This document shows positions 2,985 to 58,217 of a stretch of 64,000 bases of DNA, piece after piece. Position 1 is the stretch's first letter. Each line of letters opens with the position of its first letter. A program made the translations under genes and the position numbers. Below the pieces are notes generated by a model, which did no database searches, was not told where the DNA came from, and saw only the letters and a list, made by a program, of their open reading frames with translations. The DNA comes from a virus, in the IMG/VR virus record IMGVR_UViG_3300046787_000206, positions 30,963-94,962 of that record. One strand, written 5' to 3'.

Positions 2985-4316
2985 TTGCCAGGTTCAGTAA
3001 AAATTAGTGGTGCTCAGCGCACTGTCGCTGCCCCTTACGTAAAAGTAAATGGTACTTGGCGTACTGCAAGCATTGCTTACACTAAGGTAGCTGGAACTTG
3101 GCGTCAGTGGTATGCCGCTAGCATTACTGATGACTTTAACCGTGCAGATGCAGCTTCCCTTGGGACCGTAAGTAACGGAGTTACCTCCTGGACAAATACT
3201 AGAGGCACATGGGCAATCGTATCCAATGCTGCTGTTGGTTCTGGAACTACTCCGCTAGCCTCTGTAACTAACCCGCTGCAGTCTTCTAACTACGAGCTAA
3301 AGCTAGACCTACCGTCTGGCTCAGGCTCAGGCCTTGCCTTCTGGGTGACAGACGCAGACAACTGGTACGGCGTAGTAAGCGGAGCTACAAGCACAACTAC
3401 TTACTCTTGCCCTAATGGCGGAACACTATCAGGCACTACCTGTAGTGGTACCAGTACCTATGCGGCTAGCTCTTCTACTACCACTGTCTCAGACCCTATG
3501 TACTACAGCTGTCCATCAGGCGGCTCACTAAGCGGCACTACTTGTTACACCACCAGTACTTATGGCGCTCAGATTAACTGTTCTGGCCCGTACTACTACA
3601 ACCCTGGCGGCTCTAGTACCTACAACGCAGGCCCAGCAACCTACAGCGGCGATACCTTTGCTAAGTCTAGCGGCGGCAATTGCGCTAACTGCAGTTCAGG
3701 CCAAAACTGTTACAGCGGAGGCTGCTACAACCGTGGGTACTACTGGTGTCCTGGTGGCGGTGTCGCTATTAACATGGACTGCTACATAACTACCACCACT
3801 CCTGCAGGGTGCAGTTCTGGTAGCCAAGGCACCCCTTGTGGTAGCGGTTGCTACAGCTACAGCTACAGCTGCCCATCTGGCGGAACTCTAAGCGGCAGCA
3901 CCTGTACTGCTAACGGCTCGTACTCAGCACAGGCTAATTATCCAACTCACCAAGAGACCACTTACTCTTGCAACTCTGGGGACACTCTTAACGGGACTAC
4001 CTGTACTCACCCATTCTCGTACTCAGCCACTGGCACCACCGTTTACGATTACTTCTACAAGGTAGTTCGCATGGCTGCTGGAACCCTGTCTACTTTGGTT
4101 CAGTACACAACTCCATCAAGAGTTGCTAGTCTTAAAGTATCCACCTCTAATAGCTCTATTACAGCAGTTGCCTACACGGGAGCAGCTCAGACAGGTACTG
4201 TTATAACAAATAGTTATACAGCTACGTCTCCTGCTCTTACAGCGGTTGCTGGAATTGTTGGAGTAGGAGCTGGGTACCAATCAAGCAACACCGTGGATAA
4301 CTTCAACCTTAAGTAG
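2985..4316 (+). CDS. Tail protein with Cys-rich repeats inserted in a lectin-like fold
   Basis: 443 residues; TTG start preceded by GGAGG with 6-nt spacing. Residues ~15-45 hold two 'KVNGTWR'-type repeats common in phage tail proteins. Residues ~48-131 ('DDFNRADAASLG...WYGVV') and ~354-443 ('YDYFYKVVR...VDNFNLK') look like two halves of one LamG-like beta-sandwich. Between them, residues ~140-345 carry all 18 cysteines, including five C-x10-C units such as 'CPSGGTLSGSTC'. The even Cys count suggests disulfide loops. Probably a receptor-binding or accessory tail protein. Lectin fold is inferred from sequence pattern only. Confidence 0.75.
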   Translation: MPGSVKISGAQRTVAAPYVKVNGTWRTASIAYTKVAGTWRQWYAASITDDFNRADAASLGTVSNGVTSWTNTRGTWAIVSNAAVGSGTTPLASVTNPLQSSNYELKLDLPSGSGSGLAFWVTDADNWYGVVSGATSTTTYSCPNGGTLSGTTCSGTSTYAASSSTTTVSDPMYYSCPSGGSLSGTTCYTTSTYGAQINCSGPYYYNPGGSSTYNAGPATYSGDTFAKSSGGNCANCSSGQNCYSGGCYNRGYYWCPGGGVAINMDCYITTTTPAGCSSGSQGTPCGSGCYSYSYSCPSGGTLSGSTCTANGSYSAQANYPTHQETTYSCNSGDTLNGTTCTHPFSYSATGTTVYDYFYKVVRMAAGTLSTLVQYTTPSRVASLKVSTSNSSITAVAYTGAAQTGTVITNSYTATSPALTAVAGIVGVGAGYQSSNTVDNFNLK

Positions 4317-36500: not shown

Positions 36501-36833
36501 ATGACAAAATCAGTAGGCCAAAAGGAATCCCAGAAGCACGAGAAACGAATCGCAAAAGCCATTGGAGGGCAAACCACGGCAGCTTCTGGGGCCTTCTGGT
36601 CCCGCAAAGGGGACGTACGCAGTGCGGACCTGCTTATTGAACACAAGTGGACTGGTAAGAAAACCAAAACTATCAGTGCACTAGAGCTAGAAAAAATCAC
36701 CAACGAGGCCATCATGGATGGTCGAACACCTGTTTTTGGGATTCACCTAAATGGAGAAGATTACGTAATCCTACTTGAAACGGACTTTCTTGAGATGGCC
36801 CGAGATTTAGGAAAACTAAACGTTAATGACTAA
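36501..36833 (+). CDS. PD-(D/E)XK Holliday-junction-resolvase-like nuclease
   Basis: 110 residues. 'GQKESQKHEKRIAKAIGGQT' then 'SGAFWSRKGDVRSADLLIEH' 'KWTGKKT' holds the restriction-like core: Glu early, G-D ... L-I-E-H-K (D..E-x-K). Family seen in many phages as small resolvase or nuclease. Overlaps the WhiB gene by 8 bp. Confidence 0.7.
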   Translation: MTKSVGQKESQKHEKRIAKAIGGQTTAASGAFWSRKGDVRSADLLIEHKWTGKKTKTISALELEKITNEAIMDGRTPVFGIHLNGEDYVILLETDFLEMARDLGKLNVND

Positions 36834-37197
36834 CTTCTTCAATGGAGAACACTGGACCTCGCAGTCAAACTGCGCAGGGATAGACACGGAAATATTCTTT
36901 CCACCTAGAGACAAAACTCAGTACAAAGTTATAGCTGACCAAGCAAAGGTCTACTGCTTCGGCGGTAGAGACCAGCAGGGTCAAGAAGTTCCTCCGTGCC
37001 CTGTTAGACTCAACTGTCTTTGGTACGCCATAGACGGAGACGAGCAGCACGGTATATGGGGAGGGCTCTCACATAGAGAGCGAAACGCCCTGGTACGTAA
37101 GTGGCAAAAGCAATACAAGAGCAGCATGACGCTGAAGGAATACGTCTTTCAGCTAAATAAGAAGGGCAAGTTATGGCAGTCATCAAGTCAGACCTAA
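36826..37197 (+). CDS. WhiB-like protein with altered Cys spacing
   Basis: 123 residues. 'NCAG' (C16), 'AKVYC' (C44), 'CPVRLNCLWYAI' (C58, C64) and 'GIWGGLSHRERN' (~77) define WhiB. The usual C-x2-C between the second and third Cys is here C-x13-C through insertion of 'FGGRDQQGQEVPP'. The family binds a [4Fe-4S] cluster and sigma factor region 4; whether this one still does is unclear. Suggests an actinobacterial host. Confidence 0.85.
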   Translation: MTNFFNGEHWTSQSNCAGIDTEIFFPPRDKTQYKVIADQAKVYCFGGRDQQGQEVPPCPVRLNCLWYAIDGDEQHGIWGGLSHRERNALVRKWQKQYKSSMTLKEYVFQLNKKGKLWQSSSQT

Positions 37198-50491: not shown

Positions 50492-50554
50492 TTTTATCTG
50501 ATAACAGTGTTACTCACGACATGAATCGTGTTGGACCTGTATATAGGGGGGTGT

Positions 50555-50587
50555 GGCCCCAACACAAACAACTGTGTTAGGGCCCAC
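50555..50587. terminator. Convergent intergenic hairpin (bidirectional terminator)
   Basis: GGCCC and AACACA pair with TGTGTT and GGGCC (one mismatch), loop AACAAC region. Lies between the TGT-like gene (+) and the WhiB-WhiA gene (-). The loop side carries CAACACAAACAA. A second short hairpin CACGA/TCGTG is at 50515-50530. Confidence 0.6.
50560..50571 (+). repeat. CAACACAAACAA element, in terminator
   Basis: Copy of the element that recurs in the leftward region. Confidence 0.5.
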
Positions 50588-50592
50588 CTCCT

Positions 50593-51117
50593 TTAGTTTT
50601 TATACCCTGCTACTAGACGGCGTAGGCTACCAGAGAAAGAGTCTTTGGTTACTCCAGCCATGTCAGCTAACTCAGCCAAACTAAGGGTGGGGTTGTCTAA
50701 ACGTAGCTGTGCTGCTTTGAGAGTTGCTTCAGGCACATTACCATTAGCTAACTTAAGTGCGGCTTCAATCTTGCCCCTGGCCGCTTCACCAGACTTTGCA
50801 GCACGTAGGCTGTTAGACCTTGCTAACGCAATCTCCTTGTTACCTGTCTTAGGTAGTTCGTCCTCATGAATACGGCGCTTTGTACGCACACGACGAACGA
50901 CGCCCGTACGCTCTGATGTAGTGAGGCCTCCCCAAATACCCTCGTACTGATTGTCTATTGCTACCTGCAGGCAGTCAAACTTGATGCTGCAAGTAGCGCA
51001 TACCTTCTTGGCACGCTCTACTGTTCCGTAATAATCAGTAAACGGCTCAGGGAAAAACAACTCTGGGTCAGCGTTCTTACACGCAGCCTGAGTCATGTCT
51101 AACTCTTCTATGTTCAT
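50593..51117 (-). CDS. WhiB domain fused to WhiA-like C-terminal HTH
   Basis: 174 residues. WhiB: C13, C40, C43, C49 (C-x26-C-x2-C-x5-C), 'ELFFPEP' and 'GIWGGLTTSER' (60-70), all canonical. Residues ~105-172 'LRAAKSGEAARGKIEAALKL' ... 'VPEATLKAAQLRLDNPTLSL' 'AELADMAGVTKDSFSGSLRR' closely follow the WhiA C-terminal HTH (vP..L.eAA.LRL.nPe.SLaELg.l....tKsav.hRLRRL). In Streptomyces WhiA and WhiB act as partners on shared promoters (established). Here they are joined in one polypeptide. Last gene of the leftward region. Confidence 0.85.
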   Translation of the reverse strand: MNIEELDMTQAACKNADPELFFPEPFTDYYGTVERAKKVCATCSIKFDCLQVAIDNQYEGIWGGLTTSERTGVVRRVRTKRRIHEDELPKTGNKEIALARSNSLRAAKSGEAARGKIEAALKLANGNVPEATLKAAQLRLDNPTLSLAELADMAGVTKDSFSGSLRRLVAGYKN

Positions 51118-51338
51118 CGGCGCTTTGCCTTTCTTGATAGTTCAATGAATCCGTTATTTCTTAAATCTCGTTTTATGTTTTTCAAGGCACGGATGTCCGA
51201 AGGGGTTTGCGCAGAGAAAAAGAACCTTCCTAATGGAGATTGCCATTTAAAATGGCCTCCATTAGTTAGTTCTACCTGCCAACCTTGCTCTCTTGCTTGT
51301 CTTACTAGCAAGGATAGTTCTTTGTTACTTATCTTCAT
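51114..51338 (-). CDS. HicA-like small protein
   Basis: 74 residues from the ATG at 51338. 'LLVRQAREQGWQVELTNGGH' 'FKWQSPLGRFFFSAQTPSDI' 'RALKNIKRDLRNNGF' has the HicA double-stranded-RNA-binding-like layout: helix, strand, G-G-H, strand, T-P-S-D, helix. HicA toxins are mRNA interferases and need the central His (here H29). No HicB partner follows. May be a regulator or a toxin of the phage. Confidence 0.65.
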   Translation of the reverse strand: MKISNKELSLLVRQAREQGWQVELTNGGHFKWQSPLGRFFFSAQTPSDIRALKNIKRDLRNNGFIELSRKAKRR

Positions 51339-54561: not shown

Positions 54562-56499
54562 CTAGGCAGTCGCAAGGTTGCGAGCGATACCTACCTTGAC
54601 TAGTCGCTTGGCTAGACCGAACAACTGACTAGCCTCATTGACTAGCACTGCTACCTCGCAACCGTGAGTGTCAATAGTAATCTCGCTACGACTACGCTTG
54701 TAGTTCGGACCGTAATCAGCGTAACGCTCGTTCCACCAGTCGGTGTCATCTACATAGGCTAGTGCTGTAAGCACACCGCCCTTACGCAACTGACGCACGA
54801 TGTTGTCACACTCGTCACGCTGTGACCATGCTCCATCAGTAATGGAGATGATTAACTTAACGGCTCGCCTAGACTCGGCAAGAACATACTTGGCATACTT
54901 GAGAGCCTTGAGTGGCTCGGTGCCACGACCCATGTCAGTAACACGCTTCTGGTATGTAGCACGTTCATTGGCTGAGTAAAGAACACGTGCCGCATCGTCA
55001 AAGGCAATGACTGTAGTAGAGGCGTTGATTTTATCCATAGCCCGCTTGATAGCCCACATGTTGTCGTAAGCCTTGTTGATAGTCCATGACATAGAAGGAG
55101 ATGTGTCTAATAGAATGACACACTCAATGTCTACTGCGTCTTCACGACCTAGTTCCCAACGGTCAAACGCTTCGTCTACGTCACAACCAACACCGTAGCG
55201 TAGGACATTGAGTTTGCCACTGTCTTGACGCTTGTCCCACGCTGGGTCGTACTCACCCTTAAGCAACTCTAGTTCGCCACCGAATGACTTGGAGGCGGTG
55301 ACTGCTTCGAATGGCACGTCACTGTTGTATGACTCAGCCTTAGTAGGAGTAGCGACAGCATTGCTACTAAGTTCTGCTTCGCCATTGAACTGACGTATGG
55401 TGTTGTCAATGTCGTCAGACAACCTGTCCATAGCGTTGTAGAGCGTGTCTTCTAGAAGTTCATCTAGAATCTCACGGTCTTGACGGTTGTCGTCACCACG
55501 ACCTGCTTGCTTGCTACTGGCATCACTGTCAGGGGTAGGAGTGCGGTCTGACTGACCCTCTGATTGCTCGCTGTCAGACTGCTCTGACTGCTGACGTTTC
55601 ATACGGTCAATGATGTCTTGCTGTTCGCCCTTAGACATAGGCTTGCTAGTAGAGGAGGACTTGAGTTCGCCCTCTTTGCGCTGGTCGTGACCACTAGGGT
55701 CTTGGATACGTTGCCAACCAGTTGCTCGGTCATAAGCGTCAGTAGGGTTTGCTGGCTGTAGTTGCTTGACTAGTTCGTCATAACGCTGGATAAGTGGCTG
55801 TGCTAGGTTACACTGCGCTGGGTCAGCAAGGTTGAGCATTACGTACTGGTCTACGATAGATGTCATCTCCGACACACTGGCTGGGTCTTCGTATACCTGA
55901 GCGACAGCGTTACGCAACTCTATAGGCAGGTACTTACGACCTACGATGATAGGGAACGCTACTGAATACTGCTTAGGGTTGTTGAGCAAGTGCTGAGCAA
56001 TAAGAGCGACCATCCACTCGGTAATGCTTGGATACTTAGTGGTCATCATGGTCTCGATACGCATGTCTTCTAGCGCATTGAACGAACGCCATAGGTCATT
56101 CTGACGAACCCAAGTGCCTAGGTTAGAGCCAACACGAGGAGTCATAAGAATGTGGCAAATCTCGTGGAGAGATAGACCCTTGATAGCAGTAATAACCTTA
56201 GGGTCATTCAACTTACCTAACTTGCCAGTAGCAAACCAGATGTTGTCTGCGTCAGACCAAGCAGGTGCTGGAGCATTGAAGTCAGCGTCTAGGTGAACCT
56301 TGATGTGACGGAGAGTAAGGGTGCTAGCAAACTTACTGACTACCTGTGCCATACGGAGCATACGCTCGTGGTCACGATTGAGTGTGCCTGTATTAGACAA
56401 GGTAATAGTAGTTCCTACAGGAACTTCTATAGGCTCTGGCTCTGCGAATAAATCATCACCCTCGATGTCTAGTTCTAGAGGGTCTGTAAAAGCGGTCAC
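54562..56499 (-). CDS. Zincin-VWA (CobT-like) protein
   Basis: 645 residues from the GTG at 56499 (AAGG upstream); an in-frame GTG at 56544 lies in the leader. Residues ~112-116 'HEICH' within 'LSLHEICHILMT', then 'NALEDMRIETMM' (~142-153), form an HExxH zincin with a likely third Glu ligand. A Ser/Asp/Gln-rich linker (~280-345) follows. VWA domain ~450-620 has MIDAS 'DTSPS' (465-469), 'GRGTEPLKA' (T527) and 'SITDGAW' (D555). This metallopeptidase-like + VWA arrangement is paired with MoxR/CobS ATPases (known for the family). Confidence 0.85.
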   Translation of the reverse strand: MTAFTDPLELDIEGDDLFAEPEPIEVPVGTTITLSNTGTLNRDHERMLRMAQVVSKFASTLTLRHIKVHLDADFNAPAPAWSDADNIWFATGKLGKLNDPKVITAIKGLSLHEICHILMTPRVGSNLGTWVRQNDLWRSFNALEDMRIETMMTTKYPSITEWMVALIAQHLLNNPKQYSVAFPIIVGRKYLPIELRNAVAQVYEDPASVSEMTSIVDQYVMLNLADPAQCNLAQPLIQRYDELVKQLQPANPTDAYDRATGWQRIQDPSGHDQRKEGELKSSSTSKPMSKGEQQDIIDRMKRQQSEQSDSEQSEGQSDRTPTPDSDASSKQAGRGDDNRQDREILDELLEDTLYNAMDRLSDDIDNTIRQFNGEAELSSNAVATPTKAESYNSDVPFEAVTASKSFGGELELLKGEYDPAWDKRQDSGKLNVLRYGVGCDVDEAFDRWELGREDAVDIECVILLDTSPSMSWTINKAYDNMWAIKRAMDKINASTTVIAFDDAARVLYSANERATYQKRVTDMGRGTEPLKALKYAKYVLAESRRAVKLIISITDGAWSQRDECDNIVRQLRKGGVLTALAYVDDTDWWNERYADYGPNYKRSRSEITIDTHGCEVAVLVNEASQLFGLAKRLVKVGIARNLATA

Positions 56500-56524
56500 G
56501 ATGTGCCTTTCTATAGGTGCGGAA

Positions 56525-56535
56525 TGTTTGTGTTG
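56525..56535 (-). repeat. CAACACAAACA element before the zincin-VWA gene
   Basis: Element 5' of the GTG start; CCTATAGAAAGG follows 9 nt later. Part of the shared leader/promoter set. Confidence 0.5.
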
Positions 56536-56539
56536 GAGC

Positions 56540-56573
56540 CACACCCTAGGTAACTACTGCTACCTAGGGTGTG
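56540..56573. other. Perfect hairpin between MoxR-like and VWA genes
   Basis: CACACCCTAGGTA / TACCTAGGGTGTG, 13-bp arms, 8-nt loop, no T-tract. In the leftward transcript the CAACACAAACA element follows 4 nt later. Perhaps mRNA stabiliser or attenuator. Confidence 0.65.
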
Positions 56574-56581
56574 TATAGCAA

Positions 56582-58009
56582 CTACTTGACTGAGTATGCG
56601 CCAGTAGAGACGTTGAGTTCCTGAGCAATCTTGTCGAACTCAGCGTCAAAGCGCATCTTGAGAGCCTCACGCTCACCGTCAGACTTAGGGAACGCATTGA
56701 GTAGTGCGGTCACTGCGAACTCAAAGTTAAGGTTGGTAGCCTGAGCAATGAAGTTCTTAAGCAAGCGGGTAGACATAGGTACTGAGAACTGGTCGCTCAT
56801 CTCGCTAGCCTGACGGATACTGTTAGCGAACAACAGCAAGGTAGGTGACTTGATGAACTTGGATTCAATCTTGTCGTCATACTTGAACTCCAACTTGACG
56901 TTGAAGCGGTCTAGTAGGGCGTTGTCCTGACGAACTGTGCCTGTATAACCTAGACCTGTGTTCTGGTCAGCAATAAAGATACATTCTGGGTGAACCTTGA
57001 TGACCTCGTTGAGTGGCTCGATAAGCAACTCACGCTCTTGTAGCAGACGTAGGAACAACGAAGCAGACTTGGCGTTCATACGGGTCAACTCGTTGATAAG
57101 GATTACTGACGGCTGTTGAATGGCTGTTGCCAACTGTGAGTAAGTCCAGCGCATACTGTTACCTACACCAGTTGGAACGTAACGACCCTGAGTAATACTC
57201 TGGTCAATCTGCTGTGTACATTCGATAGTGACGAACGGCAGGTTGTGCTTAGCGGCATAGTTTCTAGCACTACTGGTCTTACCTGTGCCAGCGTCACCAG
57301 TGAGTAGCACGTTCAACTGTGACTTGTGAGCCCAAGCGTATACCTGTGACTCCGTAACGCCGTTCCACTCACGCTCATAGTATTCTTCTACATCAGGTGT
57401 GTGTAGCACCGCTTGTGTAGTAACTTCTGTGGCTGGTGGAGAGATTAGTGTAGTCATCTCCATAACATTCTCCTTTACTGGTTCTGTAGTAGTGATGGAC
57501 AAGCCCATCAACTTGTCACGCAACTCTTCTAGCGTCTCCATAACAGGTTCGTCTACTGGCTCTACTACGGTCTCTACTACAGGCTGTGGTGTTACCTGAA
57601 TAGACGGGCTAACTACTACTGGTGACATAGCCTTGGTGTATTTCATAAGGCTTGCTGGGCTAGTTACTGCGTCACTCAAGATGTCGGTGTATACCTGCCC
57701 TAGAGTGTTAGGTGCTAGGACATACGCTTCATCTTTTACCTGACGCACTAGTTTCTGCATCAAGGTAGTAGGTGTTAGAGGGAACTGTAGGTCTCGGTAG
57801 TCACTAGGCGTAATGGAGATAGCCTTAGGGACACCTACAATGAACTCGTCTAGTGCTACTGCGTCAGGTGCGGTCTCTGACCAAGCCCCTGAGACACCAC
57901 GACCACCACCTACACGATTGAACACTCGGACTGACTTATCCATAAGTGGAACTACTGCGGTCTGTCGAACTCCATAAGGAGACTGCGACTGGATTATAAC
58001 TGCGAACAT
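56582..58009 (-). CDS. MoxR/CobS-like AAA+ ATPase
   Basis: 475 residues from the ATG at 58009; a longer in-frame start at 58105 would run through the leader. N-terminal ~1-210 unrecognised with a Pro/Val/Glu-rich linker. AAA+: Walker A 'GDAGTGKTS' (238-246), Walker B-like 'VILINELTR' (302-310, Asn306 for the usual Asp), 'ECIFIADQNTGLGYTGTVRQ' (342-361) and 'DNALLDRFNV' (362-371). The 'T-G-L-G...Y-x-G-T...N-A-x-L-D-R-F' pattern is CobS/MoxR. Partner of the zincin-VWA protein next door. Confidence 0.85.
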   Translation of the reverse strand: MFAVIIQSQSPYGVRQTAVVPLMDKSVRVFNRVGGGRGVSGAWSETAPDAVALDEFIVGVPKAISITPSDYRDLQFPLTPTTLMQKLVRQVKDEAYVLAPNTLGQVYTDILSDAVTSPASLMKYTKAMSPVVVSPSIQVTPQPVVETVVEPVDEPVMETLEELRDKLMGLSITTTEPVKENVMEMTTLISPPATEVTTQAVLHTPDVEEYYEREWNGVTESQVYAWAHKSQLNVLLTGDAGTGKTSSARNYAAKHNLPFVTIECTQQIDQSITQGRYVPTGVGNSMRWTYSQLATAIQQPSVILINELTRMNAKSASLFLRLLQERELLIEPLNEVIKVHPECIFIADQNTGLGYTGTVRQDNALLDRFNVKLEFKYDDKIESKFIKSPTLLLFANSIRQASEMSDQFSVPMSTRLLKNFIAQATNLNFEFAVTALLNAFPKSDGEREALKMRFDAEFDKIAQELNVSTGAYSVK

Positions 58010-58025
58010 ACTATTACTCTCTTTC

Positions 58026-58217
58026 TTATAGGGTGTTGCTGGTTTTGTTTGTGTTGGCACGCTCTGCGAGGAACTCTCGTAGAACTTCAGCGTAGATAGC
58101 GGCAACTTCTACATCTTCTAGATTCACTAGGTCACCGTCAGTCTCCTGTGGTCTGCTATCTACAGGTGGTAGGTAGGGCTCCATTAGACTCTTGATGAGT
58201 TCAATTGGGTCTGTCAT
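58026..58217 (-). CDS. Small helical protein
   Basis: 63 residues. 'MTDPIELIKSLMEPYLPPVD' then 'VEVAAIYAEVLREFLAERAN'. The last codons run through the CAACACAAACAAA element. Not recognised. Confidence 0.55.
   Translation of the reverse strand: MTDPIELIKSLMEPYLPPVDSRPQETDGDLVNLEDVEVAAIYAEVLREFLAERANTNKTSNTL
58027..58056 (-). promoter_or_regulatory. CAACACAAACAAA + CCTATAAG leader/promoter element
   Basis: CAACACAAACAAA at 58044-58056, CCCTATAAG at about 58024-58032. Upstream of the MoxR-like gene (start 58009). Confidence 0.5.

Follow-up and report, generated by a model that had tools for sequence, protein, structure and literature searches.

A viral WhiB-family protein that carries a WhiA-type DNA-binding domain in the same chain

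Proteins of the WhiB-like (Wbl) family mostly have no DNA specificity of their own, and the way in which they choose their promoters is an active question, to which, in the case of WhiB, the partner protein WhiA provides the answer. The role of the LAGLIDADG domain of WhiA is debated. In the Streptomyces structures 8DY7/8DY9, the subject of a 2023 PNAS paper by Lilic et al., WhiB on region 4 of sigma-A is reportedly bridged to WhiA via this LAGLIDADG-like domain, and the C-terminal HTH of WhiA is said to recognise GACAC in a manner resembling the reading of the -35 element by sigma region 4. Streptomyces WhiB alone has little DNA specificity, with the contact to GACAC being provided by host WhiA (PMC4850268), and the two proteins are mutually dependent in vivo (PMC4850268, PMC6282962). 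An interaction between WhcD and WhiA of Corynebacterium is additionally cited in PMC6282962.

Other Wbl proteins are of interest for comparison as well. WhiB7/WblC combines its Wbl domain with a C-terminal DNA-binding element beside the -35 region, i.e., a short AT-hook in the minor groove. WblP of SCP1 is a Wbl protein from a mobile element that is fused to a promoter-binding module, in this case a whole ECF sigma factor, and such a Wbl-ECF sigma protein is the sole Wbl fusion mentioned in a review of the family (PMC6282962). WhiB of phage TM4 and the other Wbl proteins of actinophages have the four cysteines and the GIWGG turn of the family, and no WhiA-type HTH is described for them in a survey of actinophage WhiB and Lsr2 proteins, which does not mention WhiA and reports a Ku-Lsr2 fusion (PMC8612146).

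The protein described here is phage-borne and has the same cysteines and turn as these actinophage proteins. Like WblP it is joined to a promoter-binding module, and like WhiB7 it is proposed to place a DNA-binding element beside the -35 region. Unlike in all of these, that element is the HTH of WhiA. It also differs from the Streptomyces arrangement, in which WhiB is separate from WhiA and the latter has a large LAGLIDADG/HEN-like domain at its N-terminus, as here there is one chain and this domain is missing. No description of such a fusion was found in the literature, including the survey and the review cited above, which agrees with what had been supposed from the sequence. Phage Wbl regulators as such were already known; it is the domain architecture that is new.

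The gene is located in a window of 64,000 nucleotides, i.e., the whole stretch of DNA that was analysed, which is part of a viral contig of 94,962 bp. Positions in the following list are those of the window.

50593 to 51117, minus strand: WhiB-HTH_WhiA fusion gene, 174 aa, with its ATG at 51117 and its stop codon at 50593-50595
50905 to 51093, minus strand: WhiB (Wbl) domain, residues 9-71, from Pfam Whib
50827 to 50904, minus strand: basic linker, residues 72-97, predicted helical from its sequence and from AlphaFold2 helices 67-87 and 93-123
50611 to 50826, minus strand: WhiA-type C-terminal domain, residues 98-169, consisting of a long lead helix and the HTH
50548 to 50591, minus strand: hairpin directly 3' of the fusion stop codon, where genes converge (-34.1 kcal/mol by RNA folding, z -4.2)
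51114 to 51338, minus strand: small upstream gene, 74 aa, overlapping the start of the fusion gene by 4 nt
36826 to 37197, plus strand: second whiB gene of the same phage, 123 aa, plain and without HTH

The reading frame of the fusion gene contains no break and has exactly the ends that were first given for it. The gene closes a long run of minus-strand genes, at a convergent junction with plus-strand genes, and the hairpin at this junction is a probable transcription terminator. The G+C content is 0.492 and 0.488 in the two halves of the gene and 0.486 in the window. For the 74-residue protein encoded upstream, the sole Pfam match is the HicA toxin, with 12.6 bits and far under the cut-off. 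Judging from sequence resemblance, the host of the virus is likely actinobacterial, since the sheath of its contractile tail shares about 35% identity with that of the Streptomyces phages BRock, GiJojo, LuckySocke and pSt2308 (best tblastn places) and 50-70% with that of 80 IMG/VR contigs. An integrase gene was not found in the source record, which is possibly incomplete. The window also contains an adjoining pair of minus-strand genes for a VWA-domain protein and an AAA_5 (MoxR-like) ATPase (54562-56544 and 56582-58105) and, in the tail gene region (2985-4316), a gene for a cysteine-rich protein of 443 aa with many repeats of the form CPSGGTLSGTTC and without a Pfam match.

The first half of the protein had been read as a canonical four-cysteine WhiB domain. 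It indeed scores 63.7 bits with Pfam Whib (PF02467, cut-off 23.6) over residues 9-71, with C13, C40, C43 and C49 in the arrangement C-Xn-C-X2-C-X5-C and the G-I-W-G-G turn at residues 60-64. The four cysteines and the turn are invariant across an alignment of 25 phage Wbl proteins, and several WhiB PHROGs are matched as well. F21, F22 and W62 align with F17/F18/W60 of WhiB1 and F31/F32/W76 of WhiB3, and single alanine changes at these residues of WhiB3 and WhiB1 abolish the binding of sigma-A region 4 (PMC10245118). By its cysteine pattern, its profile score and its aromatics at the sigma-A-binding positions, the protein is a member of the Wbl family. The domain has no tryptophan ahead of the first cysteine, a residue that guards the cluster in WhiB1 and WhiB3. 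Its top PDB sequence match is WhiB from Streptomyces venezuelae (8dy7_H, E 8e-12), a protein of Wbl class II, to which WhiB2 and WhcD also belong, with 48.7 bits; WhiB1 is near at 44.8 bits, and by these pairwise scores the domain may belong to class II or to another Wbl class.

For the C-terminal part, the sequence-only reading had proposed a WhiA-type HTH in about the last 65 residues, with assignment to a generic HTH family as the alternative outcome. HTH_WhiA (PF02650) matches residues 98-169, i.e., about 72 residues, with 34.5 bits at a curated cut-off of 27. All generic HTH families stay below their cut-offs, the best of them being MarR_2 with 16.5 bits. The HTH_WhiA match covers positions 7-81 of the 84 in the profile, and the fusion boundary therefore lies near a natural domain border. 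In NCBIfam, the sole match is WhiA (TIGR00647), under the full-length cut-off of that model. An HMM built from the C-termini of 17 actinobacterial WhiA proteins gives the fusion protein 35.4 bits; among 2000 shuffled versions of the tail the highest score was 10.1 bits, and no other open reading frame of the window got more than 5 bits. The WhiA match of the tail is no chance effect. The profile comparison that had been suggested as a check pointed in the same direction, as hhalign of the tail against the 17 C-termini yielded a probability of 96.3 and an E of 1.8e-9, with 39% identity over 70 columns that take in both the lead helix and the HTH.

The recognition stretch is TKDSFSGSLRRLVA in the fusion tail compared to TKDAVAGRIRRLLA in actinobacterial WhiA, and the actinobacterial recognition pattern TKD...G..RRL.A is retained. 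The two-residue insert (DPP/EP) that precedes the recognition helix in most actinobacterial WhiA is absent, from the fusion and from the stand-alone phage copies of HTH_WhiA alike, and the identity to actinobacterial WhiA is about 30-39%. Because of this absent insert and this degree of identity, the DNA preference of the fusion HTH may differ from that of WhiA. In the PDB, the tail has WhiA chain 8dy9_I as its top sequence match (E 1.5e-5), and both halves of the protein thus find their closest counterpart in the Streptomyces RNAP-sigma-WhiA-WhiB-promoter complex 8DY7/8DY9. As candidate sources of the HTH, host WhiA reaches a best score of 120 and a mobile WhiA-like HTH a best score of 114. 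The tail was additionally considered as a sigma region 4, which was rejected, with Sigma70_r4 not being among the Pfam hits of the protein. The LAGLIDADG/HEN-like domains of WhiA (PF10298 and PF14527) are absent in the Pfam search, in which a genuine actinobacterial WhiA, used as a control, gives both of these together with PF02650. The protein is therefore a Wbl protein with the DNA-binding domain of WhiA and no whole WhiA. The term WhiB-WhiA fusion is correct for a WhiB domain and a WhiA-type HTH in one chain, and loose in that only the HTH of WhiA is present.

Structure prediction gave a similar picture. AlphaFold2, with an input alignment that consisted of WhiB relatives only, modelled the protein (pLDDT 81) as a WhiB fold followed by a C-terminal bundle with helices 93-123, 130-141, 147-154 and 158-173; given a pTM of 0.47, the model does not predict how the domains lie relative to each other. 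With the first half of this model, Foldseek retrieved WhiB chains, including 8dy9_H and 6ono. With the second half, it retrieved WhiA from Thermotoga (3hyi, probability 1.00, E 7e-3) and from Streptomyces (8dy9_I), which were ranked above the folds of sigma region 4, MarR and Lrp. When the tail was modelled on its own, with an alignment that included WhiA rows and is thus not independent of the full-length result, 3hyi and 8dy9_I were again the first matches (TM 0.67 and 0.78 by query length), with the third match far behind.

A search for other proteins of the same architecture, in related viruses, phages, plasmids and actinobacterial genomes, did not bring up a second fusion. This applies to scans of viral contigs, genome contigs, phages and plasmids with the fusion protein and to scans with the HTH only, both of which need close similarity, as well as to the 80 nearest viral WhiB genes. 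It also applies to a search with the DNA pattern GG....ER + TKD...G at exact spacing, the sole match of which (L302) was unrelated. These scans were not exhaustive and further members may exist. PF02650 had 0 matches in 50 WhiB-carrying viral records, many of which are fragments. In actinobacteria, 395 + 121 genomes (about 475 distinct) were searched with PF02650, and no WhiB-HTH_WhiA fusion was found in them. HTH_WhiA was present in 382 of the 395 Actinomycetes genomes, with exactly one copy in all but two, and the 121 genomes, which were sampled from the order of a freshwater actinobacterium, agree with one HTH_WhiA per genome. The domain is almost confined to WhiA. A second match in one genome (G417) was discarded as a low-complexity artefact. 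Another genome (G428) has extra WhiA-like HTH copies that are not fused to WhiB (L294 9465-10994; L295 6846-7427 and 8280-8921). One of the proteins, of 509 aa, is made up of several WhiA-like HTH repeats; another is an HTH protein of 213 aa, close to whose gene lies one that resembles DNA cytosine methyltransferase genes. This cluster looks like a mobile element.

In phages, the domain was found on its own. Orf72 of Tsukamurella phage TPA4 is a stand-alone HTH_WhiA protein of 124 aa (37.2 bits, above the cut-off), which has the same PF02650 domain with lead helix that the fusion has behind its WhiB domain, and it is encoded by a gene that shares 4 nt with an overlapping whiB gene (Orf72-Orf73, L005 1336-2051). 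TPA4 would thus represent a split version and, among phages, a second and independent case of a WhiA HTH paired with WhiB; a single adjacent pair could, however, be coincidence. Stand-alone HTH_WhiA proteins under the cut-off occur in Gordonia phage Sixama and Tsukamurella phage TPA2. Four other HTH matches filed under phages, one of which is MT835916, were rejected as misfiled cellular WhiA. MT835916, MT835750 and MT837525 (L002, L006, L007), filed as 'Bacteriophage sp.', contain full-length cellular WhiA genes, and the WhiA of MT835916 is 99% identical to that of Brachybacterium paraconglomeratum and lies beside a gapA-like gene; these three records are probably chromosomal DNA that has contaminated the phage collection. 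A different host-domain chimera is encoded in IMGVR_UViG_2663762759_000002 (L195, 1533-2666), where WhiB is followed by a C-terminal Lsr2 DNA-binding domain.

The fusion architecture is known from one record. Two related phages (G001 and G023) have a plain WhiB of 94-96 aa at the same locus, after the same small gene, and the WhiB domains of G023 and of the fusion share 47% identity. The small gene before whiB is common to three related phages (window 51114-51338, L298 2567-2791, L297 2730-3065). As HTH_WhiA is found in 0 of 40 related phage records, many of which are fragments, a gain of the HTH is likelier than its loss in the relatives, and it was probably gained in this lineage as a 3' extension of an ancestral plain whiB. 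Two whiB genes, as in the present phage, occur in eight of the 40 related records, and a counterpart whiB lies near an integrase gene in G023 and G028.

Taken together, we regard the protein as probably a phage transcription factor of the WhiB family, to which the DNA-binding domain of WhiA was added and which regulates promoters as one chain. The WhiB half would carry a [4Fe-4S] cluster and dock on the principal sigma factor of the host, at region 4, like WhiB1, WhiB3, WhiB7 and Streptomyces WhiB. The WhiA-type HTH would make sequence-specific contacts beside the -35 region, with the covalent linker bridging the sigma-docked WhiB and the HTH. In this way, the RNAP holoenzyme would be brought to sites picked by the HTH, and the fusion would replace the two-protein arrangement of the host, with promoter choice no longer requiring host WhiA. 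Least certain in this single-chain model are whether phage or host promoters are the targets and whether these are activated or blocked. Only tentatively can it be put forward that the protein is a minimal activator, independent of host WhiA and devoid of the LAGLIDADG domain, that takes over promoters of the WhiA/WhiB type, including the cell-division promoters of the host.

GACAC occurs 104 times in the window compared to 141 expected and is thus depleted, and between genes it is not enriched (6 observed, 7.9 expected). These counts therefore give no indication that the phage itself has classical WhiA-type promoters. They neither support nor exclude an effect on host promoters. The fusion may plausibly reprogramme the WhiA/WhiB regulon of the host or compete for the sigma factor, as the sequence-only reading had suggested.

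It is possible, but rather doubtful, that the WhiA origin of the HTH is incidental and that the domain is an interchangeable module with an unrelated phage operator as its target, unconnected with WhiA biology. The lack of GACAC enrichment in the phage is consistent with this, and WhiB indeed occurs with other modules: the Lsr2 domain of the above-mentioned chimera scores 34.6 bits, above its cut-off, three viral WhiBs (L125, L149, L164) have weaker HTH matches under the cut-off, and WhiB7 serves the same purpose with an AT-hook (PMC10245118). Moreover, WhiA-like HTHs are also found alone or repeated on mobile DNA. However, HTH_WhiA is very rare outside WhiA, with clear extra copies in one of about 475 actinobacterial genomes, and both the fusion and TPA4 have it together with WhiB, its natural partner.

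An unlikely alternative is that the fusion sits on cell-division promoters of the host or on sigma-A region 4, thereby blocking host WhiB/WhiA and arresting division. Such a role has a parallel in WhiB of mycobacteriophage TM4, a dominant-negative regulator of host whiB2 as cited in PMC8612146 and PMC6282962. The conserved recognition pattern TKD...G..RRL.A would fit as well, and as use of GACAC by the phage itself is not indicated, host promoters remain candidate targets. Nevertheless, competition for sigma would not require an HTH, and the phage already encodes a plain WhiB that would compete in this way (36826-37197). Finally, a generic HTH with a coincidental likeness to WhiA or an assembly chimera is very improbable, for although the tail is short and alanine-rich and comes from a single record, HTH_WhiA is above its cut-off with every generic HTH family below, shuffles stay at or below 10.1 bits versus 35.4 bits, the WhiA fold was matched from an alignment without WhiA rows, both halves have the G+C content of the phage, and the uninterrupted frame ends at a terminator-like hairpin; neither a junction artefact nor a non-WhiA family with a better score was seen.

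As a probable one-chain regulator that joins WhiB to the HTH of WhiA, the fusion had been expected to support a direct partnership between both proteins. This partnership was already established by 8DY7/8DY9 and the WhcD-WhiA interaction of Corynebacterium, and what the fusion adds is independent comparative support, i.e., evidence from beyond Streptomyces and Corynebacterium that WhiB works as a unit with the WhiA HTH. Together with the WhiB-Lsr2 protein of L195, it gives a hint that actinophages build WhiB chimeras with DNA-binding domains of their hosts. It further suggests that a covalent link can stand in for the LAGLIDADG domain of WhiA, and it offers a small, testable protein for the question of what this domain does.
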